DNA of 64,000 bases from Clostridia bacterium (lineage in GTDB: Bacteria; Bacillota; Clostridia; Oscillospirales; Acutalibacteraceae), in the NCBI GenBank assembly GCA_017416345.1, contig JAFQCR010000011.1:1-64000 (forward strand), given 5' to 3'. The notes beneath the pieces are model-generated. The model did not search any database and was not told the origin of the DNA. It was given only the letters and a program-made list of their open reading frames with translations. The stretch's first letter is position 1. Each line of letters opens with the position of its first letter. Position numbers and translations under genes: made by a program. Positions 28,846 through 49,626 of the stretch are shown here, piece after piece.

Positions 28846-28896
28846 GTAGGGGCGAACTGTGTTCGCCCGCGGACCGTCGAGGACGCCGGTCCCTAC
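28846..28896. repeat. Two GTAGGG hairpin repeats back to back
   Basis: Unit 28846-28870 (plus) has a GTAGGGG border and complementary GCGAAC/GTTCGC arms. Unit 28869-28896 (minus) matches the unit at 8263-8290 at 27 of 28 bases. They lie in the glnS to Nif3-gene gap. Confidence 0.8.
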
Positions 28897-28903
28897 AAAA
28901 CAA

Positions 28904-28965: not shown

Positions 28966-29715
28966 ATGAAGGTCAAGGAAATACTTGAATTTTTGTACGG
29001 TCTAGCACCGAAGGAGCTTGCCGAGGGCTTTGACAACGTCGGTCTTTTGGTAGGTGACGAAAACGCCGAGGTCAAGGGCATTATGGTGTCGCTCGATTGC
29101 TTCGACGAGGTCATCGACCGAGCCGAGGATCTTGGCGCTAACCTTATCGTGACCCACCATCCCATAATTTTTGACCCGTTAAAATCGGTCACAGCCGACA
29201 CTCTTGTCTATAAGCTGATTTCAAAAGGCATTTCGGTCATTTCGATGCACACCAACCTCGACCAGGCTGACGGCGGTGTAAATGATGCCTTGTGTGAGGC
29301 TCTCGGTCTTTACGACGTTGAACAGCTTGTCACAGCAGACGGATTTTCAATGCGAAAGGGCTATCTCGACCAGCCCGAAGACCCTTATTCCTTTGCACGG
29401 CACATCAAGGAAGCACTTGGCGGTACGGTCAAGTTTGTGGCAGGCGACCACGATATCACCACCGTTGCCGTGTGCGGCGGTTCGGGTGCGGATTTCATTT
29501 TTGATGCCGTCAACGCCGAGGCCGATGCACTTGTCACCGCCGACGTCAAGCACCATTTATTCATTGAGGCAGGTCGGCTCGGCATTTCGCTGTACGATGC
29601 AGGCCACTTCAACACCGAGGACGTTATCGTTTCGGTACTCTGCCGTGACATTGCAGGTGCCTTCCCCGAAATCGACGTGTCCGAATGTCATTTTTCAAAA
29701 ATTGAATCAATATAA
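28966..29715 (+). CDS. Nif3-like dinuclear metal protein
   Basis: The 249-residue protein belongs to the Nif3 (DUF34) family, which forms ring-shaped hexamers with a two-metal site. Ligand motifs are NVGLLVGD, LIVTHHPIIFDPL (HH), MHTNLDQADGG, and VKHHLFIEAG with HFNTE near the C-terminus. The in vivo role of the family is not settled. I chose ATG 28966 with AAGGATG upstream; a GTG 9 bases earlier is poorly placed. Its last 50 or so codons (from about 29565) are repeated at 32163-32321 with only synonymous changes. Confidence 0.9.
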   Translation: MKVKEILEFLYGLAPKELAEGFDNVGLLVGDENAEVKGIMVSLDCFDEVIDRAEDLGANLIVTHHPIIFDPLKSVTADTLVYKLISKGISVISMHTNLDQADGGVNDALCEALGLYDVEQLVTADGFSMRKGYLDQPEDPYSFARHIKEALGGTVKFVAGDHDITTVAVCGGSGADFIFDAVNAEADALVTADVKHHLFIEAGRLGISLYDAGHFNTEDVIVSVLCRDIAGAFPEIDVSECHFSKIESI

Positions 29716-29720
29716 ATTAC

Positions 29721-29757
29721 AAAGCGTTTCGGAAACCAAAATTTCCGAAACGCTTTG
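29721..29757. terminator. Bidirectional terminator between Nif3-family and GH42-like genes
   Basis: A perfect 15-bp stem (29721-29735 with 29742-29756) lies between the convergent genes. Confidence 0.87.
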
Positions 29758-29774
29758 TCTTTTGTGTTGGTTTA

Positions 29775-32066
29775 TTATTCAGTTATCTTAAACATTTTTG
29801 TTTCGCCGAAATATGCATCGAACTCAATCTCGGTCACGCCCTGACCGTAGAATTTATCCTCGTATACCTCATAAACATCACACTTTTTTGGGAAACGGAT
29901 CGTTTTCTTGCCACCGCTTGCTGCGTGGAAAGTGATATATCGGTTACCGACATACAAAACATCCTCGGAATCGCAGTAGACGTGGACACCTGCAAACTTG
30001 GCAATACTGCGCAAAACGCTGCGGTCAATGCTCTTTGAGCCGTAAAGCACCGAGGTATAACCGTCACATTCCTTGACCGAAACGGCAGGATGACCGCTTG
30101 CCGCAAAATGTGCGATATCAATAGCCTTTTCGTCAACCGAGTAGAACATCGGATACAAATAGGTTTCGTAGTACCGATTCGGTGTCACGGCCGAGGATAC
30201 ACTTATGTGCCTGCGGCGGTCAAACCGTCCGTAAAGCTCACGACGACCAAAGCCTTCCGAAATGGGATGCTCTTCACCGTCCCAACGGAACATTGCATCA
30301 TATCGGTCGTTGATCATTGCGGTTTTGATTCCCGTCAAGGCTTCGATATGCTCGGCCGACATCTTTTGCTCGGCTTCGAGGTCGATAAAGCCTGCCCCGT
30401 ACATCCAGACGGCCACCGCATTATCCTTTTTAAGCTTAGCCTTTATGACCTCTCGTTCCTCTTTTGTCAATACAAATGCGTTCATAAATACATACATCTT
30501 GTAAGACGGCATATTCGGGTTGGCCATATCGTTGTGATAATATTGGTCGCCGGATGCACCGACATACGGCATTTCGTACATTCTCGAGAACTCAAACAGG
30601 TCACGTGATGTGCAGTAGGATGCCGCCGTCATGGATTCTTCGTCAAAAATATAGGCAATCTCGTTTTTCTTTCGGCGGTCGTGGGCATAAAAGTCGGCTG
30701 TTATCTCGGTCTGCTTTTTGAAAAGATCGTAAATCTCGGGGTATTTGAAACGCTTACCGCCGACAAGCTGGTCAAACCACCATTGCTTCATATCGTTACA
30801 GATGCATTTTCCAAACTCACGCTTTAACAGATTAAGCGTATCGACCATATCAAAGCAGTAGTATTTTTCCTTAAAATACCGGTTTTCTGCCACGGTTCTT
30901 GTGTCATCCTGACACATATAAACCATATTGTTGAGCGAGAATGAGTCCTCAACAACACGCTGTGAGGTGGCACCGCCCGGCAGACGGTTTTCGTAAACAC
31001 AGGGATTTTCAATAAAATCGACCACTCCGCTGTCCATCAGCATTCGGGTTGCGGCCGCCTGACCGTTTCGAGGAATATGGGTACTGCATTGAGCGCCCGA
31101 ACAGTAGCCAACAAGTCGGTCGGGCGTCAGTTCTTTTATGATTTTGGCAAAATAGATCTGTGAGCGAACGGTGCCCTCGTGCCAACAACGATAAAAATCG
31201 TAGACGTGCATATAATTATCGAAATCAATAAACGAGCCTAAATGTGTGCCGTTGTTGTAGGCAGGCGGAACATCCTCAGTGGCAAGAATATAGCGCGGAG
31301 GAACCGAGGCGTGTTGGTCGACCATTCCCGAAAAATAATGCTCATCATAGGTGGGGATCTTCGGGTTGTTAATGGTGGCTTTAGGGTCCTTCCAGGCCTT
31401 CTTCAGAGCTTCATCAGTGCCGTATTTATTTTTAAGGTAGTATGAAAACTCACGGCGGAATGCTTCGGAATAACCTAGGCAACGCTTTTTGGAATCGTCT
31501 ACCAATGGTAACTTACAAACCCATTCCGAGGTGTTGCCGGCCGTGGGGAAGCAACAAATAATGCGGTCAAAATAGGGCAACTTCATTACCCTTTTCCAAA
31601 GTGTGCGTAGCTGTTCGCCTGCGGCTTCACGCCATTTTTGAGAGCAAAGCGAGTACCAATGCGGAGCTATCGTGTCATAGCATTCCGAGAAAATTCGTGC
31701 GGACGGCCGTGCGCCGTCGCTGTAGGTGACACATTCCTCGGGGTTGGCCTCGATCCACTCGTTTGAGGGATGCATACCAAAACGTGCGATGATGTAGGCA
31801 TCGGGTATGGTATCAAGCAGCATCCTTGCCTCTCGGTCAAAGACCTCCAAAGCATTGGGCTGAAGCCAAAGCGTGTTGCATTCAAGGAAGAAGATCTTGA
31901 AGCCCGATTTTGACAGTTGCTTAAAGTATTCCGCATTAAAGTCAATGGTTATATTGCCGTTTTCATCGGCCGAGCGTGTACGAATAAATACCGCAGGCGA
32001 TGTGTGCGGCACACCGTCAATAAAAATGGTATTGACGCCGTTGTGCATTTTCACTTCTGCTTTCAT
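29775..32066 (-). CDS. GH42-like glycoside hydrolase (GH-A clan)
   Basis: I place the start at 32066, where ATG follows GGAGGG; longer in-frame versions run back into the Nif3-gene remnant. The 763-residue protein has an N-terminal barrel with beta-galactosidase-like phrases (FKQLSKSGFKIFFLECNTLW; YSEAFRREFSYYLKNKYG). A middle domain resembles the trimerisation domain (YKMYVFMNAFVLTKEEREVI). A C-terminal beta domain ends VTEIEFDAYFGETKM. I cannot point with certainty to both catalytic Glu residues. There is no signal peptide, so it acts on imported oligosaccharides. It lies exactly between the two copies of the Nif3-gene 3' end, suggesting it arrived as an insert. Confidence 0.7.
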   Translation of the reverse strand: MKAEVKMHNGVNTIFIDGVPHTSPAVFIRTRSADENGNITIDFNAEYFKQLSKSGFKIFFLECNTLWLQPNALEVFDREARMLLDTIPDAYIIARFGMHPSNEWIEANPEECVTYSDGARPSARIFSECYDTIAPHWYSLCSQKWREAAGEQLRTLWKRVMKLPYFDRIICCFPTAGNTSEWVCKLPLVDDSKKRCLGYSEAFRREFSYYLKNKYGTDEALKKAWKDPKATINNPKIPTYDEHYFSGMVDQHASVPPRYILATEDVPPAYNNGTHLGSFIDFDNYMHVYDFYRCWHEGTVRSQIYFAKIIKELTPDRLVGYCSGAQCSTHIPRNGQAAATRMLMDSGVVDFIENPCVYENRLPGGATSQRVVEDSFSLNNMVYMCQDDTRTVAENRYFKEKYYCFDMVDTLNLLKREFGKCICNDMKQWWFDQLVGGKRFKYPEIYDLFKKQTEITADFYAHDRRKKNEIAYIFDEESMTAASYCTSRDLFEFSRMYEMPYVGASGDQYYHNDMANPNMPSYKMYVFMNAFVLTKEEREVIKAKLKKDNAVAVWMYGAGFIDLEAEQKMSAEHIEALTGIKTAMINDRYDAMFRWDGEEHPISEGFGRRELYGRFDRRRHISVSSAVTPNRYYETYLYPMFYSVDEKAIDIAHFAASGHPAVSVKECDGYTSVLYGSKSIDRSVLRSIAKFAGVHVYCDSEDVLYVGNRYITFHAASGGKKTIRFPKKCDVYEVYEDKFYGQGVTEIEFDAYFGETKMFKITE

Positions 32067-32093
32067 TTTAACACCCTCCGAATCGTTTTTTAC

Positions 32094-32122
32094 ATTGTAC
32101 AATACAGGGTGCAACGTAGCAA
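32094..32122 (-). promoter_or_regulatory. Promoter of the GH42-like gene
   Basis: On the minus strand TTGCTA (32122-32117), 17 bases, TACAAT (32099-32094). The start codon is about 28 bases downstream. This lies between the gene and the Nif3 remnant. Confidence 0.6.
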
Positions 32123-32162
32123 TACACAATCCAATAATTTTTATTTCACATTTCGATATTAC

Positions 32163-32321
32163 CTGTTTATAGAGGCAGGTCGACTTGGTATTTCGCTTTA
32201 CGATGCAGGTCACTTTAACACCGAGGACGTTATCGTTTCGGTACTCTGCCGTGATATTGCAGGCGCTTTTCCTGAAATCGACGTGTCCGAATGTCATTTT
32301 TCAAAAATTGAATCTATTTAA
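32163..32321 (+). pseudogene. Remnant: 3' end of a Nif3-family gene
   Basis: This stretch encodes the final 52 residues of the intact gene at 28966-29715 (from LFIEAGRLGIS to HFSKIESI), with the same stop position. Comparing the two by eye I count about 15 base differences, every one synonymous. Similarity stops sharply just before the conserved histidine pair, and there is no start codon or ribosome binding site. It is therefore not a working gene. The synonymous-only pattern shows that both copies spent time under selection as protein, so this copy comes from a diverged but functional relative. Confidence 0.88.
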
Positions 32322-32360
32322 AAAATGGCCCGTGGAAGTTTCTTCCCACGGGTCATTTTA
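32322..32360 (+). terminator. Terminator after the Nif3 remnant
   Basis: A hairpin (32322-32337 with 32343-32359, a few imperfect pairs) ends in TTTTA. It differs in sequence from the terminator after the intact gene. It lies between convergent reading directions and may also serve the GH39-like gene. Confidence 0.75.
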
Positions 32361-32412
32361 TGTGATTAGTATGCTCAATATTATTAAAGCGATTTTAACA
32401 AAACAAGTTTCT

Positions 32413-33762
32413 TCACAGGATATCAAACTCAAACGTATCCCTCTCGCAATAAATAAGAGGATATTCTTTTATTGGCCATGCAGCATCGTCTTCAGTTCGC
32501 TCAAAAGCCTCACCGGTCATCATATCAATAACAACGGGATCTTTAAGTTTTGAAGAAGGAGATTGTGTGATATTGCAAGGCTTATTAACCTCCTCGCATC
32601 CCACCACCGGCACGCTTAACCAATACGCCATACATGGCTTGCCGTTGTGCATAAACGATACCGTTGTGACGGGAGTATTGGGGTCGCAGGTTGTTCCCTT
32701 GCCCTCGACCACTGCGAGGTCATCTATGAGATTATTCTCATCACTTAAAACGTTAGCGGCATTGGTAAGTGCCTTATAAGTCTTTTTTGGGGAGTAGGTT
32801 ATGCCGTTAAGAACACCTTGTGCGGCAGGCTTTTTAAGCACCTCAACTACCTTTTCATAAGGCTTTTGCCAAAGGTCAACAACCATGAAAATCGAGGTCA
32901 ATTTCAAGCCGTTCTTGAGGTCTAAAAAGCAACGGCGCAGATGCCACACCGCTTGATTGTGTTCGCTTCCGCCACCTTCGGGGCATTTTGCGTGTCCAAC
33001 CGGATGCCAAGATGCATGTCCGCCCTCGCCCATCCATATTTCAACTTGTTCAAAGCCCAAATCGTCCAAAATTTTTCTTGCATATACCGTGCGTTGCGAG
33101 TTCCAGCCGTTTTCGGGGAATGGGTCATAGTTGTGTGCGCTGTAAAAATGGACTTCATCTTTTTCAAGATTGGAAAAAACGTTGTAAACAAACTCGGGGT
33201 GAGAACAGCATAAACAAAAGCCGATTTTGGCGGTGGGCAACACACTGCGAACAACTGCACCCGTTAATTTTATAAGTTCGGCAAGTTTTTCGGGAGAGGA
33301 TTTCCCGGGATACCAAAAATGCTCAAGGTCGGGCTCGTTCCATATTTCGTAGTGGGTAATGCGATCTTTAAAATGCTCGGTCATAGCCTTAACATAGTTT
33401 ATCCAAGCTGTAAGACACTCTTCATCGTAAAGTGTAGGCACACATCCCACGGCGGTAGAATTGGGAGCATCGGGCATATACAAGGGATTGCCGTAGCCAA
33501 CGTTGAACCATGGCTCCATACCTCTTTTTATGAGGTTATCCACCATACCGTCAAGCCACGAAAAGTCGTAAACGCCCTTCTCGGTTTCGGTTCTTGCCCA
33601 ACCCGTCTGCACACGGACGGGCTTAATTCCCATAGCTCCCACAAGGTCATAGCACCTTTCGGGGTCAAAAAGGTCGCGGTCATAACACTCAAACCCAATG
33701 CCGACACGGGAGCTTTTTATTTCATTTGAAGATTTTGTCTTTAAGCATCCTATAAGCTTCAT
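32413..33762 (-). CDS. GH39-like glycoside hydrolase (GH-A clan)
   Basis: The 449-residue TIM-barrel enzyme has YEIWNEPD with the acid/base Glu143 and VEIWMGEGG with the probable nucleophile Glu246. Spacing and order fit GH39-type beta-xylosidases, though GH5- or GH30-like relatives are possible. There is no signal peptide, so it should work in the cytoplasm. It is the last gene of a four-gene run with dehydrogenase, dehydratase and aldolase, so it probably releases the monosaccharide those enzymes break down. The start follows AGGAGA, 36 bases after the aldolase stop. Confidence 0.8.
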   Translation of the reverse strand: MKLIGCLKTKSSNEIKSSRVGIGFECYDRDLFDPERCYDLVGAMGIKPVRVQTGWARTETEKGVYDFSWLDGMVDNLIKRGMEPWFNVGYGNPLYMPDAPNSTAVGCVPTLYDEECLTAWINYVKAMTEHFKDRITHYEIWNEPDLEHFWYPGKSSPEKLAELIKLTGAVVRSVLPTAKIGFCLCCSHPEFVYNVFSNLEKDEVHFYSAHNYDPFPENGWNSQRTVYARKILDDLGFEQVEIWMGEGGHASWHPVGHAKCPEGGGSEHNQAVWHLRRCFLDLKNGLKLTSIFMVVDLWQKPYEKVVEVLKKPAAQGVLNGITYSPKKTYKALTNAANVLSDENNLIDDLAVVEGKGTTCDPNTPVTTVSFMHNGKPCMAYWLSVPVVGCEEVNKPCNITQSPSSKLKDPVVIDMMTGEAFERTEDDAAWPIKEYPLIYCERDTFEFDIL

Positions 33763-33798
33763 AATGATTTCTCCTGTAAATCAAACGCACTTGAATAT

Positions 33799-34461
33799 TT
33801 ATTCGACAAGCCCTCTTGCTTGGTTCATTCTTTCAACGTGAAGGCGAGTTAAGGCGGCAATACCCTCAAAATCTCGGTTGGCAATAAGTTCGGGCTTTAA
33901 GATTGAAGCACCCGTTCCGACCGCACACGCACCTGCCTTGAAAAAGTCACCGATAGTATCGGGATTCACACCTCCTGTGCAAAGAAACGGAACGTGTGAA
34001 AGAGGACGTGTTATGTTCACAAGATAACCTATATCATCCTTGGTTATGGGGAACATTTTAACGATATCCGCACCTGCTCTGTAAGCCGTCATAACCTCGG
34101 TGGGTGTGAATGCACCGGGGATGGAAATCATCCCCATTTGCTTGGTCAGTTTGATAATATCGGTATTAACGTCGGGTGAAAGCAGAAATTTTGCTCCTGC
34201 TTGCTTTGCGGCAACGACATATTTCTCATCAATAACCGTACCTGCTCCAACCAACATTTTGTCGCCCATCGTTTCATAAATCGTGCGGATAGCTAAGGCG
34301 GTTTTCTCGGCAGTGTCTCGGTCACTTGGGTCAAAAGTAACCTCTGCAACACGCACACCACCGTCGTAAACAGCACGTATAACATCGGGGATGAGCGACA
34401 AATCTATACCGCGAAGAATAACCATAAGACCTTGTTGCTTAATATATTCCAAATCACTCAT
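33799..34461 (-). CDS. KDPG/KHG-type aldolase
   Basis: The enzyme splits a 2-keto-3-deoxy sugar acid, often phosphorylated, into pyruvate and an aldehyde through a Schiff base. The 220-residue barrel has VAEVTFDPSD (catalytic Glu40), AGTVIDEKYV, LSPDVNTDI and ADIVKMFP with the Schiff-base Lys135. Its start overlaps the dehydratase stop by 8 bases, so the two are translationally coupled. No sugar acid kinase is present nearby. Either the substrate is unphosphorylated or the kinase lies elsewhere. Confidence 0.9.
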   Translation of the reverse strand: MSDLEYIKQQGLMVILRGIDLSLIPDVIRAVYDGGVRVAEVTFDPSDRDTAEKTALAIRTIYETMGDKMLVGAGTVIDEKYVVAAKQAGAKFLLSPDVNTDIIKLTKQMGMISIPGAFTPTEVMTAYRAGADIVKMFPITKDDIGYLVNITRPLSHVPFLCTGGVNPDTIGDFFKAGACAVGTGASILKPELIANRDFEGIAALTRLHVERMNQARGLVE

Positions 34462-35644
34462 ATTTCAGATGCTCCAACTCTTTAAAATAGTATATAGTAT
34501 CATCCTTGGGGCGGATGTCGGTGACCGTGCCGACATAGTGGCGCAGGTTGCGCTCCTTAAAGGGACGGCTCTTGATGACCTCCTCGTCGAGGTCGATTCC
34601 AAGACCCGGCTTGTCGGGTATAATGATGTGTCCGTCCTCGTAATGTACCTCCTCGGTGCTGACCTGCTTTCTGAATGAGCCGTCGGTCAGCATTATCTCG
34701 TGGATACAGAAATTGGGGATGGTGCAGGCCAACTGCAGGATTGCGGCATTTGAAACGGGACCCGACGGATTGTGGAACGACACCGGCACGTGCTTGGCTT
34801 CAGCCATACCTGCAATCTTTTTGCCCGTCATAAGACCGCCTGCGTGGAACACGTCGGGCTGCAAATAGTCAACACAGTTCTTCTCAAGGATCTCCTGGAA
34901 GGCATAGATACCGTAGCCACGTTCACCTGCGGCGATGGGGATGTTGGAGTGTGCACGGACATAGGCAGTTGAATCCATATTATCGGGAACGCAAGGCTCC
35001 TCCAAAAACATCGGGTGATACTGCTCAAGCTCACGTGAGATGATAAGTGCCGTTGTGGGGTTAAAACGTCCGTGGCACTCGATAAGCAGGTCAACGTTAT
35101 CACCGACAGCCTCTCTGACGGCACCGACAATATCGGACGACAGCTTAAGTTGTTCGTTGGATATGCTCATGTGCGACGAGCCAAACGGATCCCACTTGAG
35201 CGCCTTGATGCCAAGCTCGGCCGTTCTTTTGGCTTTTTTGGCAAACTCCTCGGGGGTACGTGCTCCCACAAACCAAGCATTTGCGTACATCTTGACACGG
35301 TCTCTTACCTTGCCGCCGAAAAATGCGCTGACGGGAACGTTCAAGGCCTTACCCTTGATGTCCCAGCAGGCCATTTCGATGGCACTCAAAGCCGACATCA
35401 GCACGGGGCCGCCCTTCCAATAAATATCACGGTAGACCTCAAACATCAGCTTTTCGGTCTCAAACGGGTCACGTCCGACAATCAGTCTTTTAAGGTCCTT
35501 GACCATACCCTCAAGTGCATTCTCATTGGTGCCAAGCGAAGCCTCGCCCCAACCGTAGATACCCTCGTCGGTCTCAACCTTGACAAAGTTCCAATTCATT
35601 CTAAACGAATCCATCGTATATGCTTTTACATCGGTAATTTTCAT
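34454..35644 (-). CDS. Sugar acid dehydratase, enolase superfamily (galactonate dehydratase-like)
   Basis: The enzyme removes water from a sugar acid to give a 2-keto-3-deoxy acid. The 396-residue protein has an N-terminal capping domain (VKVETDEGIYGWGEAS) and a barrel with metal-ligand motifs LLIECHGRF, MFLEEPCVPDN and IAAGERG. YLQPDVFHAGG and VSFHNPSGPVSNA supply candidate acid/base histidines. It resembles galactonate and related dehydratases; the sugar cannot be fixed from sequence. It follows the dehydrogenase after 12 bases. Confidence 0.88.
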   Translation of the reverse strand: MKITDVKAYTMDSFRMNWNFVKVETDEGIYGWGEASLGTNENALEGMVKDLKRLIVGRDPFETEKLMFEVYRDIYWKGGPVLMSALSAIEMACWDIKGKALNVPVSAFFGGKVRDRVKMYANAWFVGARTPEEFAKKAKRTAELGIKALKWDPFGSSHMSISNEQLKLSSDIVGAVREAVGDNVDLLIECHGRFNPTTALIISRELEQYHPMFLEEPCVPDNMDSTAYVRAHSNIPIAAGERGYGIYAFQEILEKNCVDYLQPDVFHAGGLMTGKKIAGMAEAKHVPVSFHNPSGPVSNAAILQLACTIPNFCIHEIMLTDGSFRKQVSTEEVHYEDGHIIIPDKPGLGIDLDEEVIKSRPFKERNLRHYVGTVTDIRPKDDTIYYFKELEHLKYE

Positions 35645-35656
35645 ACTATTTCTCCT

Positions 35657-36433
35657 TTACTTCTCATCAAGATCCGCAGGTTTTTTGAACGGCAACAAGC
35701 AAACGCTGATGCCCGAATCGACCGTCAGCTCGGTACCCGTAACCGTCCTTGAAAGGTCGGAGCCCAAGTAATAGACCGCCTCGGCAATGTCCTCTCCGAA
35801 CGACTCGATTCCCGCAGGATACTGCGCCCTTCTGCGTACGGTCTCCTCTTCGGTCTGCACGTCCCAACGGTCGGTGTGAATGGCACCTGCGGCAATATAA
35901 TTGGCACGGATGCCGTAAGCGCCCAGCTCGACCGCCATCGACTTGGTCAGCGACAGCAGAGCGCCCTTTGACATGGTATAAAGCGCACGACCGTGAATTG
36001 CCTGGTGACAATGCACCGAGCCGACCACCACGATAGAGCCTTTGCCTTGAGCTTTCATTATCTTGGCGGCATTCTGACAACAGAAAAATGTTCCCTTGAT
36101 ATTGGCATCAATAACGCTGTCAAAAGCATCCTCAGCAGAATTGAGCACGCCAAAATCAACGCCCAGATTTGCGGCATTGGCGACAAAAATATCAAGTCCA
36201 TTGAAGGTGTTTTTAATATCCTCAAACGCCGCATTGACCGATTTTATATCGGACAGCTCGACACGGTAGCCCTTGGCCTTGACACCGTATTTTTGCGACA
36301 GCTCATTAGCAACCGCTTCAGCATCGGCGGCCTCCCTGCCCGACACGGCAACATTAAAGCCTAATTGTGCAAATTTTTCTGCAATGGCACGACCTGTGTT
36401 TCGTGTCGCTCCTGTGATAAAAACAGTTTTCAT
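35657..36433 (-). CDS. Short-chain dehydrogenase/reductase
   Basis: This NAD(P)-dependent enzyme has TGATRNTGRAIA (cofactor loop, 7-18), NAAN near 86-89, Ser139 and the catalytic pair Tyr152/Lys156 in YTMSK. At 258 residues it is a classical SDR. Heading an operon with a dehydratase and an aldolase, it probably oxidises a free sugar to its lactone or acid. No lactonase is seen. The ATG follows GAGGTGA. The AraC gene lies divergent, with a palindrome between. Confidence 0.88.
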   Translation of the reverse strand: MKTVFITGATRNTGRAIAEKFAQLGFNVAVSGREAADAEAVANELSQKYGVKAKGYRVELSDIKSVNAAFEDIKNTFNGLDIFVANAANLGVDFGVLNSAEDAFDSVIDANIKGTFFCCQNAAKIMKAQGKGSIVVVGSVHCHQAIHGRALYTMSKGALLSLTKSMAVELGAYGIRANYIAAGAIHTDRWDVQTEEETVRRRAQYPAGIESFGEDIAEAVYYLGSDLSRTVTGTELTVDSGISVCLLPFKKPADLDEK

Positions 36434-36511
36434 AATATCACCTCGGTTTCAGTATATTGACGATAAGCTTTACTGTCTACCACAATTTCACCAAATTAGC
36501 ACAATACGACC

Positions 36512-36529
36512 CTTTTATTTAAATAAAAG
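36512..36529. promoter_or_regulatory. Perfect 18-bp palindrome, operator candidate
   Basis: CTTTTATTTAAATAAAAG is fully self-complementary and touches the -35 box of the AraC gene. It lies between the regulator and the sugar acid operon, which fits a regulator site. Confidence 0.5.
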
Positions 36530-36558
36530 TTGAAATTCCGTGATTTTTATTATACAAT
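36530..36558 (+). promoter_or_regulatory. Promoter of the AraC gene at 36580
   Basis: TTGAAA (36530-36535), 17 bases, TACAAT (36553-36558), 21 bases before the start codon. Confidence 0.65.
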
Positions 36559-36579
36559 AAGACCAAATGAGGTGAAGCC

Positions 36580-37383
36580 ATGAAATACATTTCTTTGTGG
36601 GACGTCGATAAATACGACTTTCTGCTCAAAAACATTCTTGCGGTAGCATTGAAACCCAAGCGCCGTGTCATAAACCACACAAGCCGCCCCTCGAACAGCT
36701 TTACTCTGTTCACTGAAGGTGAGGTCGAATACACATTTGACGGCGAGACCCACCGTCTGCCTGCAGGCTCGCTTATATATCTGCCGAAGGGGTCACGGCA
36801 TAGCTTTAGATGGGTGTCCGACAAGGTGTTGTTCAGCCACATCAATTTTGAAATGTATGTTGGCGGCGAATACACCGTTTTTTCCAAAACGCCGTTGATA
36901 ATCAGCACCAACTGCGACCCCGAGCTGCAGAAGCTGTTTTCCGATATATGCAACCTTTACTCAAGCCGTGAATATTGCTACACCCTGCGCGCAAAGGCCC
37001 GACTTATTGAATTTATCTACACGCTTTTGAAGATACACCGTGCTAAATTGTCGAGCATACCGCACAAGAACCCCGCAACGGCCTGCATTGAATATATAAA
37101 CGAAAACTATTCCCAAAAAATCACTACCGAGGAGCTTTGCCGTATCACCTCTTTAAGCCCCACCCACCTGCGGCGAGTTTTCAAAAACTCGACCGGCTCG
37201 ACCATTGTGGATTATGTAAACCAATGCCGTATCACAAAATCCTTAGAGCTACTCACCCATTCCGAAATGTCGGTTATGGAGATTTCGGAAGCGGTGGGTT
37301 TTGAAAGCCAGAACTACTACACCCGAGTGTTCCGAAAGCTGATGAACACCACCCCCAACGCCTATCGCAACAATTTAACATAA
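36580..37383 (+). CDS. AraC-family transcription regulator
   Basis: The 267-residue protein has a cupin sensor domain (GEVEYTFDGETHRLPAGSLI; LPKGSRHSF) and a C-terminal AraC DNA-binding domain (TTEELCRITSLSPTHLRRVF; VMEISEAVGFESQNYYTRVF). It lies divergent to the dehydrogenase-dehydratase-aldolase-GH39 operon, which it probably controls. It starts 4 bases after GAGGTGA. A bidirectional terminator separates it from the next gene. Confidence 0.9.
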   Translation: MKYISLWDVDKYDFLLKNILAVALKPKRRVINHTSRPSNSFTLFTEGEVEYTFDGETHRLPAGSLIYLPKGSRHSFRWVSDKVLFSHINFEMYVGGEYTVFSKTPLIISTNCDPELQKLFSDICNLYSSREYCYTLRAKARLIEFIYTLLKIHRAKLSSIPHKNPATACIEYINENYSQKITTEELCRITSLSPTHLRRVFKNSTGSTIVDYVNQCRITKSLELLTHSEMSVMEISEAVGFESQNYYTRVFRKLMNTTPNAYRNNLT

Positions 37384-37385
37384 AG

Positions 37386-37424
37386 TAACCGCCTTGAGTA
37401 TTGAAAACTCAAGGCGGTTATTTT
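37386..37424. terminator. Bidirectional terminator after the AraC gene
   Basis: A 14-bp stem (37386-37399 with 37407-37420) is followed by TTTTATTT on the plus strand. It lies between convergent genes. Confidence 0.87.
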
Positions 37425-38748
37425 ATTTCACAACATCAATTTTTTGAATACCGTAGTAATTCAGGATTTTGACAACGTCCTTAGTTATGACCTCACCGCT
37501 CATTATGGGTGGGACGGCGGGCGGGCACGAAACCTTGGGGGCGGCACACACACGGCCGATCGCATTCTGAACCTTGACGGTCTCCTGCTCGGCAAAAAGT
37601 GCCTCCCTTATGCTCATCGCCTTGGTCGGCACGGCCGTTTTGGGGAACTCACGGTCGATATTCTCCGCTATCATTTGCGAAAGCAATGCCGTTTTGACCC
37701 TTAAAAAAGCATCCCCGTCGGTACTTGGGCTGAACATAAGAACAACCACGTCACGGTCGCAAAGCTCGCACTCAACGGCGTTTTGGCGCAAAATTTCGGC
37801 AACCTGCTCGCCGTCAAGCCCCACACTTGCGCAATCCACCGTTATCTTCAACGGTTCATCGCCCAGAAGGCTGAACCCGTGCGCCAAAAGCTCGGTCTTA
37901 AGCTCGGTCACGCACTCCACGGTTTTTGAAAGCTTGTCCCTAAGTCCGTCGGACAGCTCAACATTACACATATCAAGCGACTGCATTATCAAATACGACG
38001 GGCTGGTGGAAGCAAAGACCGACAAAAACCGTCTTGCGTTTTCGCAAAACTCTTTAGGTGCTTTTTTGCCTATATGCAGATACGCACCGCCGGTCAGCAC
38101 AGGCAAGGTCTTGTGTGCCGAATCGCAACACATATCGGCACCCAAATGTATCGGGTGCTGTGATTTTTTCAAAAATCCGAGATACGCACCGTGAGCGTTA
38201 TCGACCAACAACGGAACATCAAACTCATGGCACACCTCGGCAAGCCCTTTTATATCCTGCACGTTGCCGAGATAATCGGGTGATGTGACGTACACCGCAC
38301 TCGGCAGCTCGGGCATACCTTGAAGTTTGTTTTTCAAAGCCTCGGCCGAAACAACACAGCTACAAATATGCTCGGCCTCTTGAGGATACAGCCACTCGAC
38401 ATTCAAATCGAGCAACGCCGCACCGTAAAGAAAAGCTTTATGCACATTTCGGGCGGCCAAAACGGTTTTAGATTTGCCGTTTGTGGCGATGGCCAGCATA
38501 GCCTTTATGCACAGCGACGACCCTTCTGTGGAATAGTATGTATGAGCCGTTTTAAATAGCTTTGAAGCGTTGTTTTCGCTTTGGAGTATCACACCGTCGG
38601 GACTGTACAAAACGTCTGCACCGTCAACCTCGGTTATATCATACTGCTCAACGCCCAAAGAGCCACAGCCCTTATGTCCCGGCATATGAAGTCTTGAAAC
38701 ACCGCTTTCGGCATAGTGCTTTACAAAATCAACTATCGGCGTGTTCAT
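37423..38748 (-). CDS. Orn/Lys/Arg decarboxylase-family PLP enzyme
   Basis: The 441-residue protein is a fold-type I PLP enzyme of the basic amino acid decarboxylase family. It shows HMPGHKGCG at 21-29, VDNAHGAYLG with Asp183 and His186 against the cofactor, and DSAHKTLPV with the PLP-binding Lys213. It is shorter than the full inducible decarboxylases and fits the compact YaaO/SpeA-like group. The substrate is unknown. I start it at 38748 because ATG overlaps the TGA of the SCIFF maturase (ATGA), a sign of translational coupling. Confidence 0.87.
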   Translation of the reverse strand: MNTPIVDFVKHYAESGVSRLHMPGHKGCGSLGVEQYDITEVDGADVLYSPDGVILQSENNASKLFKTAHTYYSTEGSSLCIKAMLAIATNGKSKTVLAARNVHKAFLYGAALLDLNVEWLYPQEAEHICSCVVSAEALKNKLQGMPELPSAVYVTSPDYLGNVQDIKGLAEVCHEFDVPLLVDNAHGAYLGFLKKSQHPIHLGADMCCDSAHKTLPVLTGGAYLHIGKKAPKEFCENARRFLSVFASTSPSYLIMQSLDMCNVELSDGLRDKLSKTVECVTELKTELLAHGFSLLGDEPLKITVDCASVGLDGEQVAEILRQNAVECELCDRDVVVLMFSPSTDGDAFLRVKTALLSQMIAENIDREFPKTAVPTKAMSIREALFAEQETVKVQNAIGRVCAAPKVSCPPAVPPIMSGEVITKDVVKILNYYGIQKIDVVK

Positions 38749-40118
38749 TGGTCGGCCTCGGCAACCTTTATCATAACGGCACATTCCATTCTCTTTTTAA
38801 AGAGCTCACAGCCGTACTCGTAAACGCCGCTTATCTTACCCGTTGCATGGTAAGAGTTGGCCGCACAACCGCCCGAGCAATAAAGCTTGGCCCAGCAATC
38901 CTTACATTCGGGTCGGGCATAGGCATTACAGCTTCTGAATTCGTCCTGCGCCGCCTTGTTGGTGACACCCTTCCAGACATCACCAAGGCTGTATTTGGGA
39001 TCACCGACAAACTGATGGCAGGGATAAAGCTCACCCCAAGGGGTGACCGCCATATACTCGGTACCCGAGCCGCAACCCGTGATACGCTTGTAGATGCAGG
39101 GGCCCTCGGTCAGGTCGATCATATAGTGATAGAAGGTAAAGCCGTTGCCTGCCTTCTTGCGTTTTATCATCTCAACCGCTAACTTTTCATACTGCTCAAA
39201 AAGCTTGGGCAGATCGGCCTCGGTCAAGGCATAGGGGTCCCCGGGTGCACAGACCACGGGTTCCATACTGAGTTCCTTAAAGCCAAGGTCGGCCATATGG
39301 AAAATATCCTCGGTAAAGTCAACGTTGTTGTGGGTAAAGGTGCCGCGCATATAGTAATCCTTGCCGCCACGTTTTTCCACAAGGCGTTGGAACTTGGGCA
39401 CGATGTCCTCATAGCTTCCCTTGCCGTTATAGTATTTTCTGAAATGGTCGTGAATGCTTTGACGTCCGTCAAGGCTCAAAACCACGTTGCACATTTCCTT
39501 GTTGAGATAGTCGATTATCTCGTCGTCAAGCAACACTCCGTTGGTGGTGAGTGTAAAACGGAAGTTCTTGTTGTGCTGTTTTTCAACGCTTCTGGCATAC
39601 TCAACAAGCTGCTTTACGACCTCCCAGTTCATCAGCGGCTCACCGCCGAAGAAGTCGACCTCTAAATTCTTGCGTGTACCCGAGTTGGCAATAAGGAAAT
39701 CGAAGGCCTGCTTGCCGACCTCAAACGACATCAGCGCACGGTCGCCCTGATATTTGCCCTGACTTGCGAAGCAATACGAGCAGTTTAAGTTACAGGTGTG
39801 AGCGACGTGCAGACACATAGCCTTTACAACATTTGAGTTGTTCTTGAAATCAATGGCAAGGTTTTCGTAAACATCCTCGGAATACAGCTTGCCTTGTTTT
39901 TCAAGCTCGGCAACGTCATTAAGACACTCCTTGACCTCGTCGGCCGTAACATCGGGCTGATCTTTATACTTATCCAAAACAAACTCGGTTATCTCCTCTG
40001 CCGAATGGGTCTTATACATTTCGATAATGTCGTAAGCCACCTCATCGACCGAATGCACCGACCCACTGCAGGTATCAAGCACAATATTATAACCGTTCAG
40101 CTTATAGCAATGTACCAT
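38745..40118 (-). CDS. scfB: SCIFF peptide maturase (radical SAM/SPASM)
   Basis: This radical SAM enzyme forms thioether bridges on the small cysteine-rich SCIFF peptide encoded just upstream. In the 457-residue protein an N-terminal peptide-binding region precedes the radical SAM cluster CNLNCSYC (Cys109, 113, 116). VDFFGGEPLMNW, LTTNGVLL and VLSLDGRQSIHD follow. The SPASM domain has many cysteines (GCGSG, YPCHQF, ECKDCWAKLYCSGGC). It starts after TATGGAGT. The operon order is peptide, maturase, decarboxylase-like enzyme. Confidence 0.94.
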   Translation of the reverse strand: MVHCYKLNGYNIVLDTCSGSVHSVDEVAYDIIEMYKTHSAEEITEFVLDKYKDQPDVTADEVKECLNDVAELEKQGKLYSEDVYENLAIDFKNNSNVVKAMCLHVAHTCNLNCSYCFASQGKYQGDRALMSFEVGKQAFDFLIANSGTRKNLEVDFFGGEPLMNWEVVKQLVEYARSVEKQHNKNFRFTLTTNGVLLDDEIIDYLNKEMCNVVLSLDGRQSIHDHFRKYYNGKGSYEDIVPKFQRLVEKRGGKDYYMRGTFTHNNVDFTEDIFHMADLGFKELSMEPVVCAPGDPYALTEADLPKLFEQYEKLAVEMIKRKKAGNGFTFYHYMIDLTEGPCIYKRITGCGSGTEYMAVTPWGELYPCHQFVGDPKYSLGDVWKGVTNKAAQDEFRSCNAYARPECKDCWAKLYCSGGCAANSYHATGKISGVYEYGCELFKKRMECAVMIKVAEADQ

Positions 40119-40142
40119 AAATTACTCCATATCATAAAAGAA

Positions 40143-40163
40143 GCCGCCTTAATATAAGGCGGC
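40143..40163 (-). terminator. Hairpin between SCIFF peptide and maturase genes
   Basis: A perfect 8-bp GC-rich stem (40143-40150 with 40156-40163) is followed on the minus strand by TTCTTTT. As a weak terminator it would yield more peptide than enzyme transcript. Confidence 0.6.
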
Positions 40164-40183
40164 GTTCCTTGTTTTAACAAAGA

Positions 40184-40330
40184 TTACTTGTTAGCGTTCT
40201 CGCACTTCTGGTTAGCAACACCGCAAGAGGTCTTGCAAGCAGACTGGCAGGAGGTCTGGCACTCGCCACAGCCACCGGTCTTAACGCTCTTATTCATATC
40301 TCTGGTTTCGATAGTCTTAATTCTGCTCAT
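40184..40330 (-). CDS. scfA: SCIFF ranthipeptide precursor
   Basis: The 48-residue peptide starts MSRIKTIETRDMNKS at 40330, after AAAGGAG. Its core has six cysteines: CGECQTSCQSACKTSC plus a last Cys near the end. That is the SCIFF (six cysteines in forty-five residues) pattern found across Clostridia. The adjacent maturase supports the call. The function of the mature peptide is not firmly known; links to quorum sensing have been suggested. Longer in-frame starts run into the promoter and are unlikely. Confidence 0.95.
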   Translation of the reverse strand: MSRIKTIETRDMNKSVKTGGCGECQTSCQSACKTSCGVANQKCENANK

Positions 40331-40382
40331 TGTAATTACTCCTTTAAAAATTGCATTGCGGAAAACCGCTTTATCATCTGTA

Positions 40383-40411
40383 ATTTTATCACAGCAACGC
40401 TTTTCTGTCAA
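40383..40411 (-). promoter_or_regulatory. Promoter of the SCIFF operon
   Basis: On the minus strand TTGACA (40411-40406), 17 bases, TAAAAT (40388-40383), about 53 bases before scfA. It is one of the best consensus promoters in the window. Confidence 0.78.
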
Positions 40412-40428
40412 GTGGTAAACGCCAATTC

Positions 40429-41412
40429 TTAGCGTTCTTCACGGAAATAAGAAAGTCCAAGGCTCTGCGGAGGCTGATTCTCACGCTTTTTACGGATGCT
40501 TATGATAATAAGCACCAGTATCGTTACAACGTAAGGAAGCATATTGATGAGCTCCTTGTTGCTGGCCGAAAGTCCCGGAATGTAAACGCAAAGGATGTAA
40601 AGTCCACCGAAAAGATAAGAAGCAAGGATGGACATTTTGGGCTTCCAGATGGCAAAGATAACGATGGCAATGGCAAGCCAGCCACGGTCACCGAAGCCGT
40701 TGTTGGTCCAGGCACCGCCGGTGTAGTCCATAACGAAGTACAGACCGCCGAAGCCTGCGATCATTCCGCCGATGCAGGTTGCAAAATACTTATACTTGGT
40801 AACATTGATACCTGCCGAGTCGGCCGTGGCGGGATTTTCGCCGACAGCACGGAGGTTAAGACCAACTCTCGTTTTATTAAGTATAAATGACGCTACCAGC
40901 GCAATTATAACGGCAAGATAAACCAAAAATCCGAACGACAAAAAGGTTTTTCCGAAAAGACCGAGGTCGTCGGCAAACGGCAAAGACATCTTGAATGCCG
41001 CACCGCAATCCATAAGCGAAATAGAACCGCTTTCATTAAAGAACTTGAGCAACGAGCCACCGAAGAAGTTACCGATACCGATACCGAAGGTGGTCAGCGC
41101 AAGACCCGTTACGTTCTGATTGGCACGCAAGGTTATGGTAAGGAAGCTGTAGATCAGCGTCATTATAAGCGATCCCAGCATACAACTGAGCAACGGGATC
41201 AGAATGCAAAGAGCAGTGTTGGGATCTTCGGTATAATGCTCGTAAATATAGCCGCCGATAATACCCGAAATGCCACCGACATACATAATACCGGGGATAC
41301 CAAGGTTAAGGTTGCCCGATTTTTCGGTGATGATCTCGCCCGTGGCACCGAAGAGCAACGGCGTACCCTGAATGATCGCAGCATTGATAAATGCAAAAAT
41401 CGTATTTAACAC
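40429..41412 (-). CDS. Nucleoside ABC transporter permease (NupQ-like)
   Basis: The 327-residue membrane protein has about 8-9 hydrophobic segments and the BMP-type permease signature (GEIITEKSGNLNLGIPGIMYVGG; RAVGENPATADSAGINVTKYK). With the other permease it forms the channel of an importer resembling NupNOPQ/BmpABCD, which takes up nucleosides. It starts 2 bases after the previous stop and is the last gene of the operon. I found no clear terminator before the SCIFF promoter, so read-through is possible. Confidence 0.88.
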   Translation of the reverse strand: MLNTIFAFINAAIIQGTPLLFGATGEIITEKSGNLNLGIPGIMYVGGISGIIGGYIYEHYTEDPNTALCILIPLLSCMLGSLIMTLIYSFLTITLRANQNVTGLALTTFGIGIGNFFGGSLLKFFNESGSISLMDCGAAFKMSLPFADDLGLFGKTFLSFGFLVYLAVIIALVASFILNKTRVGLNLRAVGENPATADSAGINVTKYKYFATCIGGMIAGFGGLYFVMDYTGGAWTNNGFGDRGWLAIAIVIFAIWKPKMSILASYLFGGLYILCVYIPGLSASNKELINMLPYVVTILVLIIISIRKKRENQPPQSLGLSYFREER

Positions 41413-41414
41413 CG

Positions 41415-42560
41415 TTATCCCTCCTTATGCTTTGTGCGAAGATTAACCTTGTAGTTTATAAAGAATTCGCAACCGATAATAAAGAAAATAATAATACCGG
41501 TCAGAATATCCGAAACGCTTTGGTTAAGGCCGAAGGTTGTTGCAATGGCGCCTGCACCTCTTTGCATAAACACAACAAGGAACGAGGTGATAACCATCAT
41601 ACCGGGATTGAATTTAGCCAACCAGGCAACCATAATTGCCGTAAAGCCCATACCGCCTGCAATGTCTTTAGAAACGGTATAATTGGTACCGGAAACCAAT
41701 AAGAAGCCTGCAATACCGCAAATAGCACCCGAAACGATCAAGGTTCTGATGATAACCTTTTTGACGTTGATGCCGATATATCTGGCGGTATTTTCGCTCT
41801 CACCGACAACCGAGATCTCATATCCCTGCTTACTGTACTTCAAGTAAATGTACATAGCCACGGTAAGCAATCCGACGATCAAAATATTAAAGCCGTATTT
41901 CTGTCCGAAAAGCTCGGGAAGCCAACCGCTTTCGGTATTGGGATTGATGATACCCATAACGCTTGAGCCGTTGGGGACCCACACCATTATGAAAAACGCA
42001 ACCAACTGCATTGCCACATAGTTCATCATAAGGGTAAACAGACTTTCGTTGGTTCCCCAAATTGCTTTGAAAATTGCAGGAATAACGGCCCAAATAATAC
42101 CGGCCGCCATACTTGCCACAAGCATCATGGGAATGAGCACAGCGTTTGATAACGGAGCCTCATACACCAACGGCAACGTATCACCCATACGCACTTCTTT
42201 AAAATAGAACATACAAGCCGCCGAAGCAAGCGCACCGACAAGCACCTGACCTTCTGCACCAAGGTTCCAGAACTTCATTTTAAAGGCAGGTGTGACCGCC
42301 AATGAAATACACAAAAGCATTGCTATGTTCTGCAAAAGGATCCAGAACTTACGCTCGGTACCAAAGCTTCCCTCGATCATCTCCGAATAAACGTCTAACG
42401 GGTTTAGCTTGGTCAACAAAACAATGAGAGCCGAGCAAACGATCAAAGCTGCTACAATAGCAATGGCTCTGATGATAACTCCCTTATACCAAACCATAGC
42501 ATCACGCTTGGTGATGTGCAGCAACGGCTCTGAGTGCTGTGCCAATCTTTTACTACTCAT
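41415..42560 (-). CDS. Nucleoside ABC transporter permease (NupP-like)
   Basis: The 381-residue membrane protein is the second permease of the importer. It has LTPAFKMKFWNLGAEGQVLVG-type wording in the first half, then GESENTARYIGINVKKVI, the coupling-loop region of this family. The start at 42560 follows AAAGGAG. It overlaps the end of the ATPase gene by 8 bases, so expression is coupled. The N-terminal 20 residues are polar and cytoplasmic. Confidence 0.88.
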   Translation of the reverse strand: MSSKRLAQHSEPLLHITKRDAMVWYKGVIIRAIAIVAALIVCSALIVLLTKLNPLDVYSEMIEGSFGTERKFWILLQNIAMLLCISLAVTPAFKMKFWNLGAEGQVLVGALASAACMFYFKEVRMGDTLPLVYEAPLSNAVLIPMMLVASMAAGIIWAVIPAIFKAIWGTNESLFTLMMNYVAMQLVAFFIMVWVPNGSSVMGIINPNTESGWLPELFGQKYGFNILIVGLLTVAMYIYLKYSKQGYEISVVGESENTARYIGINVKKVIIRTLIVSGAICGIAGFLLVSGTNYTVSKDIAGGMGFTAIMVAWLAKFNPGMMVITSFLVVFMQRGAGAIATTFGLNQSVSDILTGIIIFFIIGCEFFINYKVNLRTKHKEG

Positions 42561-44088
42561 TGTCGTCACTCCTTTCGGTCTTGGTCATAAGGATTCCTAT
42601 TTCTTCCTTTTTGGCGGTACGTCCGTCAACAATACCGGTGATTCGTCCCGAGCCGATGACCATTATACGGTCGCAAAGCTCGATCAAAACGTCAAGATCC
42701 TCACCGACGAAAATAACGGCAACGCCTTTTTTCTTCTGCTCATTAAGCAGGTTGTATATCGTGTAGGAGGAGTTGATATCAAGTCCTCTTACGGGGTAAG
42801 CCGCCATCAAAACAGTAGGCGATGCGGCTATCTCACGTCCGACGAGTACCTTCTGAACGTTACCGCCCGAAAGTCTGCGGACAGGGGTGGATGCGCTGGG
42901 AGTAACGACCTGCAGGTCGTTGATTATCTTGTTGGCAAGCTCCTTGGGTGCCTTGCGCTCAACAAAAACGGTTCTACCCTTTTTGTAGCTGCGGAGCATC
43001 ATATTGTCGATAATATCCATATTTCCGACAAGACCCATACCGAGACGGTCCTCGGGGACAAACGAAAGACGGACACCAAGCTCACGTATCTGCAACGGAG
43101 TTTTGTCACGCAGATTTTCGACATCACCCGTTTTGGGGTTGTGGTACAGTATCTGTCCGTCGTTGAGATGCTGAAGGCCTGCGATGGCCTCAAGCAGCTC
43201 ACGCTGACCGCTGCCTGCGATACCGGCAATACCCAATATCTCGCCCGATCTTGCGGTAAAGCTGACGTCATCCAAAAGCTTAACTCCCTCACGGCTGACA
43301 CAGCTTATGTTGTTGACCTCAAGACGGTCTACCGGGTTTTCGGGCTCACTGCGCTCGATATTAAGGTCGATCTTCTGACCGACCATCATCTCGGTCAGTT
43401 GGGCTTCGTCGGTCTCGGCGGTATTAACGGTGCCTATATATTCACCCTTGCGGAGAACCGCAACACGGTCGGAAAGCGACAAAACCTCGTGCAGCTTATG
43501 GGTGATGATGATGATGGCCTTGCCGTCATCACGCATGGAGCGCAGGATCTTGAACAGCTTCTGGGTCTCCTGCGGGGTGAGAACTGCGGTGGGCTCATCA
43601 AGAATAAGAATGTTGGCGCCACGGTAAAGCACCTTGATTATCTCAACGGTCTGCTTTTCCGAAACCGACATCTCATATATTTTCTTTCTGGGGTCGATAT
43701 CGAAGCCATATTTGTCGGATATCTCCTGAACCTTTTTGGAAATGGCGTTTATATCAAACTTGCCCTCGTTTTCAAGGCCAAGAACAATATTTTCGGCAGC
43801 AGAAAAAACATCAACAAGCTTAAAATGCTGATGTATCATGCCGATCTTATAGTCAAATGCATCCTTGGGGGAAGAAATTACGGCTTCTTTGCCGTCGATA
43901 AGTATCTGTCCCTCGTCGGGGAAATATATTCCCGAGATCATATTCATCAAAGTGGTCTTACCGCTTCCGTTTTCGCCCAGCAATGACAAAATCTCTCCGT
44001 TATAGACCGAGAGATTTACATCCTTATTGGCAACAACAGAACCGAATCGCTTTGAGATATTGCGAAGTTCTATAGCAACGTTTCCCAT
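42553..44088 (-). CDS. Nucleoside ABC transporter ATPase (two nucleotide-binding domains)
   Basis: The 511-residue protein has two fused ABC domains, as in RbsA and NupO. The first has Walker A GENGSGKT (38-45) and Walker B ILILDEPTAVLTP. In the second domain Walker A is degenerate (GIAGSGQREL), typical of this family, while LSGGNVQKVLVGREI is kept. It powers the two permeases. I start it at the ATG at 44088, 9 bases after AAAGG. Confidence 0.9.
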   Translation of the reverse strand: MGNVAIELRNISKRFGSVVANKDVNLSVYNGEILSLLGENGSGKTTLMNMISGIYFPDEGQILIDGKEAVISSPKDAFDYKIGMIHQHFKLVDVFSAAENIVLGLENEGKFDINAISKKVQEISDKYGFDIDPRKKIYEMSVSEKQTVEIIKVLYRGANILILDEPTAVLTPQETQKLFKILRSMRDDGKAIIIITHKLHEVLSLSDRVAVLRKGEYIGTVNTAETDEAQLTEMMVGQKIDLNIERSEPENPVDRLEVNNISCVSREGVKLLDDVSFTARSGEILGIAGIAGSGQRELLEAIAGLQHLNDGQILYHNPKTGDVENLRDKTPLQIRELGVRLSFVPEDRLGMGLVGNMDIIDNMMLRSYKKGRTVFVERKAPKELANKIINDLQVVTPSASTPVRRLSGGNVQKVLVGREIAASPTVLMAAYPVRGLDINSSYTIYNLLNEQKKKGVAVIFVGEDLDVLIELCDRIMVIGSGRITGIVDGRTAKKEEIGILMTKTERSDDNE

Positions 44089-44165
44089 TCTTTGCATCCT
44101 TTCGGTTTAATTTTCAAAACAAAAAGCCTTATATAAGACCTGCTCTTTTAAAAATTAAAACGAAA

Positions 44166-44193
44166 TTCAGGCGGGACGTTTGCCCCGCCTGAA
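44166..44193 (-). terminator. Hairpin between binding-protein and ATPase genes
   Basis: A GC-rich 10-bp stem (44166-44175 with 44184-44193) is followed on the minus strand by TTTCGTTTTAATTTTT. A partial terminator here would raise binding-protein levels above the membrane parts. Confidence 0.7.
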
Positions 44194-44205
44194 AAGAGCT
44201 TGAAA

Positions 44206-45411: not shown

Positions 45412-45465
45412 TTTTCTAACCTCCAAAAAAATTATATGTAAATTTAATTTACACCGAAATAAAAC

Positions 45466-45522
45466 AAAAAATCGGAAGGCATAAGACGACCCTGATGCTT
45501 GTCCTCTTTTTGCCTTCACCGA
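45466..45522 (-). terminator. Intrinsic terminator inside the transporter leader
   Basis: Between the promoter and the start codon, the minus-strand RNA can fold 45522-45511 with 45481-45472 and extend further inward. T6 follows (45471-45466). A terminator ahead of the first gene suggests attenuation by a ligand or protein. I do not recognise a known riboswitch core. Confidence 0.65.
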
Positions 45523-45581
45523 CCTCCTCGTATAAACCAAGAATATTGTCTAAATTTAAAATGAAGAATATTTACACAGAT

Positions 45582-45610
45582 ATGTTACCACAAACCGCAA
45601 AAATTGTCAA
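45582..45610 (-). promoter_or_regulatory. Promoter of the nucleoside transporter operon
   Basis: On the minus strand TTGACA (45610-45605), 17 bases, TAACAT (45587-45582). The leader is about 165 bases long and contains the terminator hairpin. Confidence 0.72.
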
Positions 45611-45668
45611 CAGAATTTGACTTATTTTGCGTTGGTATACATAATACTATATCTTGTGGTTTAATTAA

Positions 45669-46463: not shown

Positions 46464-46492
46464 ACCTTCATCCCCTTTATTGATCTGAATCA

Positions 46493-46521: not shown

Positions 46522-46573
46522 GAAAACGAAATAATTATACATATAATCGGTAGATTTTCAGCGGTACAGCGGT

Positions 46574-46579: not shown

Positions 46580-46610
46580 CGAAATATAAAGTGATCTAAA
46601 GGGTGATAAA

Positions 46611-49281: not shown

Positions 49282-49626
49282 TTACTTCACAAGCTCGATG
49301 ATAGCCATCTCTGCAGCGTCACCACGGCGGGGGCCGGTCTTGGTGATACGGCAGTAGCCGCCATTCTTAGAAGCATAGGCAGGTGCGATCTCTTCGAAGA
49401 GTTTCTTTGCAACAGCTTCCTTGGTGATAAAGCTGAGTGCCTGTCTGTAGTTGGCGAGATTGTTATCCTTAGCGAGTGTGATATATTTCTCGGTCATAGC
49501 AACAACTTCTTTTGCTCTGGTAACGGTGGTTTCGATCTTACCGCTCTCAAGCAGGAAGGTAACCATAGCTCTGAGCATAGCAGTTCTGTGATCGCTGGTT
49601 CTACCGAGTTTTCTTGTTCCGGGCAT
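49282..49626 (-). CDS. rplQ: 50S ribosomal protein L17
   Basis: The 114-residue protein of the large subunit, near the exit tunnel, begins [20 protein letters not shown], the family signature. It is the last gene of the ribosomal cluster, follows rpoA and is directly followed by the terminator. Confidence 0.97.

Follow-up and report, generated by a model that had tools for sequence, protein, structure and literature searches.

A 64,000-nucleotide stretch of DNA from a Clostridia bacterium of the Acutalibacteraceae (GenBank assembly GCA_017416345.1, contig JAFQCR010000011.1, positions 1 to 64,000; here called the window) contains an intact nif3 gene whose 3' end is found a second time, in the same direction, on the far side of an inserted gene. 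We propose that the downstream end is the scar of a homologous exchange with the DNA of a close relative, and we put the probability of this reading at roughly 0.7. The displaced tail probably originated in a sister lineage and probably has no function. We regard the case as a further example of an already known process and not as a new kind of mobile element, and further displaced gene ends are present in the same genome. The features that carry the argument are the following, with GC3 denoting the G+C fraction at third codon positions.

28966..29715, + strand: intact nif3 (DUF34/NIF3; Pfam PF01784, E 4.7e-72)
29560..29715, + strand: upstream tail copy (FIEAGRLG...KIESI and stop) within the intact nif3; GC3 0.52; probably native
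29775..32066, - strand: inserted gene of 763 aa ('GH42-like'); stop codon at 29775-29777, start at 32066
32162..32166, no strand: non-homologous junction at which DNA from upstream of the inserted gene meets the coding interior of a nif3 copy
32166..32321, + strand: displaced nif3 3' end; 15 synonymous differences, GC3 0.33

The direct repeat spans 29560-29716 and 32166-32322 on the same strand, with 142 of 157 nucleotides identical, no insertion or deletion, and an offset of 2606. Read in frame, each copy holds 51 sense codons and the stop (29560-29715 and 32166-32321). The 15 differences are single-base changes, all of them synonymous (15/15), so that the residues are identical at 51 of 51 positions. 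An earlier reading made from the sequence alone (the sequence-only reading) had counted about 15 synonymous base differences between copies running in the same direction, with the last 51 residues identical, and the alignment bears this out. It had also extended the repeat to the last 52 codons, starting at 32163. The repeat holds for 51 codons and the stop; at the additional codon the two copies read TTA and CTG, both leucine, with two bases differing, and homology there is indistinguishable from chance.

The direction of the changes is uneven. From the upstream to the downstream copy, 11 of the 15 go from G/C to A/T, one goes the reverse way and three are between A and T, in keeping with the earlier remark that the downstream copy is richer in A/T at third positions. 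A simulation of 20,000 trials, in which the same 15 changes were scattered randomly over the upstream tail, altered 8.6 residues on average, with a minimum of 2. Because all 15 observed changes are synonymous and none of the 20,000 random placements was as extreme, the pattern indicates that the two tails diverged while each was coding. In-place duplication followed by neutral decay of a fragment is ruled out by the synonymous-only pattern together with the simulation, in agreement with the sequence-only reading, which had found the arrangement at odds with a plain tandem duplication, expected either to be nearly identical or to decay freely.

Composition points to the downstream copy as the foreign one. 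The 5' part of nif3 has a GC3 of 0.60, against 0.52 for the upstream tail; the downstream tail stands at 0.33. A tail GC3 of 0.328 or less occurs in 5 of 679 comparable open reading frames (ORFs; at least 200 aa, 5' GC3 of 0.55-0.65, taken from the surveyed 71% of the genome, that is 19 of 38 contigs and 1,751,860 of 2,469,392 bases). In the three congeners available (G001, G002 and G003), the nif3 tail has a GC3 only 0.04-0.12 below that of their own 5' parts. Of the 15 sites that distinguish the copies, G002 shares 10 with the upstream and 4 with the downstream one, and over the whole tail its identity is 0.78 to the upstream and 0.74 to the downstream copy. On this mainly compositional evidence, the downstream copy is probably the foreign one. 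The suggestion that DNA was brought in from a relative by recombination, already made in the sequence-only reading, thus gains from both the synonymous-only divergence and the odd GC3 of the downstream copy.

In the exchange that we propose, a close relative would have supplied DNA with a nif3 3' end, and this DNA would have recombined into a variable spot behind nif3. One border would be set by homology within the nif3 3' end and the other by non-homologous joining, which would fuse the upstream region of an accessory gene to the interior of nif3. The likeliest route would be a single crossover of a donor fragment re-circularised after the loss of part of nif3. One-ended homology with illegitimate joining (homology-facilitated illegitimate recombination, HFIR) would be an alternative route to the same anatomy. 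Either would leave nif3 whole, followed by one accessory gene and then a displaced tail of nif3. The two borders expected of an HFIR event or a re-circularised insertion are both seen here, the homologous one as the 157-nt repeat with 90% identity and the non-homologous one at 32162-32166. The longest identical run of the two tails measures 41 nt and lies near the stop (29668-29708). After a crossover in this run the upstream copy would still be native and nearly the whole of the downstream copy would be foreign; such a site agrees with the composition, given the odd GC3 of the downstream copy. We infer from these patterns that the donor was a sister lineage and that a crossover was the route; the accessory DNA that came with it may lie on either side of the displaced tail.

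Comparable end duplications have been obtained in the laboratory. In Escherichia coli, when homology was limited to one end, the lacZ 3' part, 56 of 60 Lac- recombinants gave the PCR product of a partial end duplication; 14 duplications were sequenced and measured 109-950 bp. They were ascribed to DNA that had been partly degraded and re-circularised before a single crossover, and 4 of the 60 recombinants were apparently HFIR (PMC3240628). As in that case, a partial 3' end duplication borders the inserted DNA at nif3. Unlike that case, which involved a laboratory plasmid with a cloned lacZ segment, the nif3 arrangement is natural and involves DNA that is 10% divergent. For the type VI secretion system (T6SS) arrays of Vibrio cholerae, PMC5361080 tentatively proposes that successive HFIR-like insertions shift older 3' parts downstream. 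The nif3 locus resembles these effector-immunity/Rhs arrays in having new genes at a conserved anchor, with old 3' parts kept downstream; it differs in that the displaced immunity genes of the arrays are described as probably kept by selection, whereas the nif3 tail has no evident use and the cargo is metabolic.

Several points weigh against our proposal. Of the 15 distinguishing sites, G003 has 9 in common with the downstream and 4 with the upstream copy, and G001 is near even (downstream 6, upstream 5). Over the whole tail both lie slightly nearer the downstream copy (G003, 0.74 vs 0.71; G001, 0.69 vs 0.68). The nif3 gene of G003 is itself AT-rich. Origin and polarity therefore rest, at the level of sequence, on GC3 and one congener, G002. 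Neither a donor sequence nor another strain was found in a search of the genus (4 genomes, own included), and the junction may include some microhomology. A species-level collection returned the same three congeners, and near-identical records may be left out there. The genome is a draft in 38 contigs, and the join is as given by the assembly. Finally, the same picture would result if a second, full-length nif3 had once been present and had lost its 5' part later.

This last reading, in which a second complete nif3 (a xenologue or an old duplicate) once stood here and a deletion left its tail, accounts well for the synonymous-only divergence, which is what a functional second copy would be expected to show. 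We consider it unlikely, since the window's genome gave the intact gene and a tail only, and each congener gave one match (E<=0.001). In all, this search found nif3 in 37 of 40 genomes, own included, and a second, tail-only match in the window's genome alone among the 40, although weak tails in distant genomes could escape such a search. The sequence-only reading had named, as evidence against its own idea of DNA from a relative, the presence of both copies with the same divergence in all related genomes, or many non-synonymous changes in the alignment. The three congeners instead gave a single nif3 match each, and none gave a full-length match to the inserted gene (three weak partial matches in G002, none in G001 or G003).

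The recipient site proposed for the exchange can be compared across the same genomes. In G003, nif3 faces rplQ-rpoA (rplQ and rpoA named by eye) at a distance of about 90 bases, whereas in the window nif3 and rplQ are separated by 19.6 kb of accessory genes (29716-49281). G001 and G002 have other genes after nif3, with no rplQ among the ORFs listed for the next 4.5 kb. In this small congener sample, gene content thus marks the site behind nif3 as variable. The accessory run starts with the inserted gene, followed by GH39-like, KDPG aldolase, mandelate-racemase family, SDR and AraC genes. It continues with an Orn/Lys/Arg decarboxylase, a radical SAM gene and ABC transport genes (two permeases, one ATPase and one of Bmp type), and ends with an AraC gene and an FAD-dependent oxidoreductase. 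Two further features delimit the run.

32413..33762, - strand: GH39-like gene, first of the accessory run that leads through KDPG aldolase, mandelate-racemase family and SDR to AraC
49282..49626, - strand: rplQ (named by eye), right border of the accessory region; directly after nif3 in G003

The accessory run recalls the minimal mobile elements of Neisseria, in which accessory genes lie between conserved neighbours and are moved by recombination in the flanks. The nif3 locus likewise has accessory genes between conserved neighbours; unlike the minimal mobile elements, it shows a duplicated gene end, which is not known to be part of their definition.

To place the nif3 case within its genome, 60 codons from either end of each of 1418 ORFs (at least 110 aa) in the surveyed part were searched back within the genome. 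Of 256 same-strand matches at distances of up to 30 kb, 31 satisfied the filters on identity and frame. Among these 31 we read displaced 3' ends of nif3, of spoVAC (two tails) and of an FAD oxidoreductase (named by eye). The spoVAC gene, identified by NCBIfam TIGR02838 above its cut-off, has displaced tails at C35:8212-8337 and about 9680-9806, with 82 and 76% amino acid identity. Both begin at one same codon, and no displaced spoVAC tail was found in the congeners at E<=0.001; this comparison uses the genus alone, since in a set of 198 relatives a distant paralogue disturbs the spoVAC counts. The FAD oxidoreductase tail (C10:106966-107069) is 92% identical over 104 nt and keeps 25 of the last 26 residues; the ORF that intervenes at this locus (C10:105792-109314; L141:5792-9314) resembles a REP-associated tyrosine transposase, though its score does not reach the family cut-off. 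One case concerns a 5' end, that of an EamA-like transporter (just below the Pfam cut-off), repeated at C10:28856-29056 with 95% identity over 201 nt and 3 residue changes. A MATE-like gene (named by eye) has a 27-residue piece at C32:137912 that ends short of the gene end. Of the remaining rows, one is the antisense of nif3 itself, and the others, inspected as a group, look like paralogues or tandem repeats. Divergence varies widely among the displaced ends.

Displaced gene ends of this kind can serve as footprints, in which a piece of the core gene of a donor or an ancestor stands beside an acquired gene. They could give the distance of the donor and the order of arrivals, even in species known from draft genomes alone. 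In the present genome they also suggest that ordinary recombination between sister lineages, without the machinery of a mobile element, can let catabolic genes build up behind conserved ones. If the spoVAC breakpoint were site-specific, this would be a different and larger story.

A mobile element was the second explanation offered by the sequence-only reading, in the form of an element that enters a gene and makes its 3' end whole again. The precedent is prophage e14, which has its own integrase; in the icd gene of E. coli it exchanges the 3' end for a nearly synonymous one and displaces the native end. A small integrative element of this type in the nif3 3' end would make the upstream copy the element's and the downstream copy the native one. 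The anatomy is as such an element predicts (intact gene, cargo, displaced tail), with a gene 3' end swapped or displaced by a near-synonymous copy as in icd. The 9 sites, out of 15, at which G003 matches the downstream copy also fit. So do the spoVAC tails, which start at the same codon and whose left flanks B and C have in common a word matching at 10 of 12 bases, a score that 4 of 100 shuffles attained; flank likeness and start codon together are the sole hint of a site preference in these sequences.

We nonetheless judge such an element at nif3 distinctly improbable. Unlike the case of e14, no recombinase was matched in the insert. Its one long gene has no Pfam or NCBIfam match, and hence no integrase match, and none of the 14 proteins scanned, the inserted one and 13 further proteins up to rplQ, gave a Pfam match to a recombinase (the ORF at 46611-47354 and short ORFs were left unscanned). 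The GC3 of the downstream copy (0.33, with 5 of 679 ORFs as low) argues against a native tail, and G002 speaks against it too, G003 for it. No motif was found that the nif3 junction has in common with those of spoVAC, the FAD oxidoreductase or EamA: for 12-base words, comparison of the nif3 junction flank with the four other displaced ends was equalled in 54 to 100 of 100 shuffles. Searches for close relatives of the nif3 tail returned 0 in IMG/VR and 0 in plasmids, and phage records held nothing close, with 2 partial matches below 60% identity.

More speculative, and in our view very unlikely, is that recurrent short cassettes arrive at the 3' ends of conserved genes in this lineage and bring replacement ends that displace the old ones, with the activity supplied in trans, in an integron-like manner with no integron. 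The loci would be nif3 once, spoVAC twice (at the same breakpoint) and the FAD oxidoreductase once. The weakest alternative, a misjoining of strain variants of a mixed population during assembly, could draw on the draft state of the genome (38 contigs) and on congener records labelled as metagenome-derived genomes, but the junction is non-repeated, with 32140-32380 matching the genome elsewhere (upstream copy aside) by pieces shorter than 30 bases only, and the same genome holds other displaced tails that are differently diverged, so that an artefact is scarcely credible.

The 2.45 kb between the nif3 copies hold one complete gene, on the strand opposite to nif3. Neither Pfam (threshold 0.001) nor NCBIfam (0.01) gave a match for its protein. 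When a profile built from 8 homologues was compared with the PDB, short stretches matched beta-amylase (best E 7.5e-4) and, at E 0.06, two chains of beta-galactosidase, 662-671 residues long, which we take to be GH42. The gene thus probably encodes a glycoside hydrolase, with GH42 not established as the family. The sequence-only reading had placed a GH42-like gene and its promoter between the copies; the gene and a promoter-like site do lie there, and the family name is weakly borne out. The gene is patchily distributed: among 295 genomes of the order, 7 (the window's own being one) have relatives at E<=1e-100, with 58% as the best identity. The putative signals around the gene are listed below; three come from consensus scans whose counts barely exceed those of shuffled sequence (promoter-like, 6 vs 4.6; terminator-like, 4 vs 3.3).

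29719..29758, no strand: terminator-like hairpin of 17-18 pairs between the convergent nif3 and inserted gene (consensus scan)
32094..32122, - strand: promoter-like site of the inserted gene, TTGCTA-17-TACAAT (consensus scan)
32125..32161, - strand: operator-like stretch upstream of the inserted gene, reaching up to the junction (22-nt match, 95%)
32329..32352, no strand: second terminator-like hairpin, unlike the first in sequence (consensus scan, reported on the - strand)

The stretch TAATATCGAAATGTGNAATAAAAA... is common to 32125-32161 of the window and to an otherwise unrelated intergenic region around C2:43831-43853, the wider similarity being judged by eye. It may be an operator. The 22-nt match at the junction had been considered as the end of an element; this was dropped, as the match is part of the longer stretch common to the two intergenic regions and an operator is likelier. 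Because the stretch recurs elsewhere in the genome, the junction is placed at 32162-32166, where the common stretch ends and nif3 homology starts.

Some minor observations concern the surroundings of these loci. Preceding nif3 are gltX- and glnS-like genes (named by eye), and a 29-base intergenic repeat, REP-like by eye, occurs in the window at 8263-8291 and at 28869-28897, the latter between the glnS-like gene and nif3. The EamA-like 5' duplication (L137:8856-11739) brackets an opposite-strand gene of 405 aa and is a mirror of the nif3 case. At the FAD oxidoreductase locus (C10:105792-109314) there is a further short repeat around a xylose-isomerase-like gene. On C35 (L172:3630-9806), spoVAC is followed by its two displaced tails, with an AraC/glycyl-radical enzyme/radical-SAM set and a GDSL-type esterase gene as spacers. 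A 279-base repeat is present on the same contig (C35:4202-4480 and 16477-16755; L172) and on others too. The surveyed part of the genome holds seven more matches to it, and the six of these that are listed have 93-97% identity.

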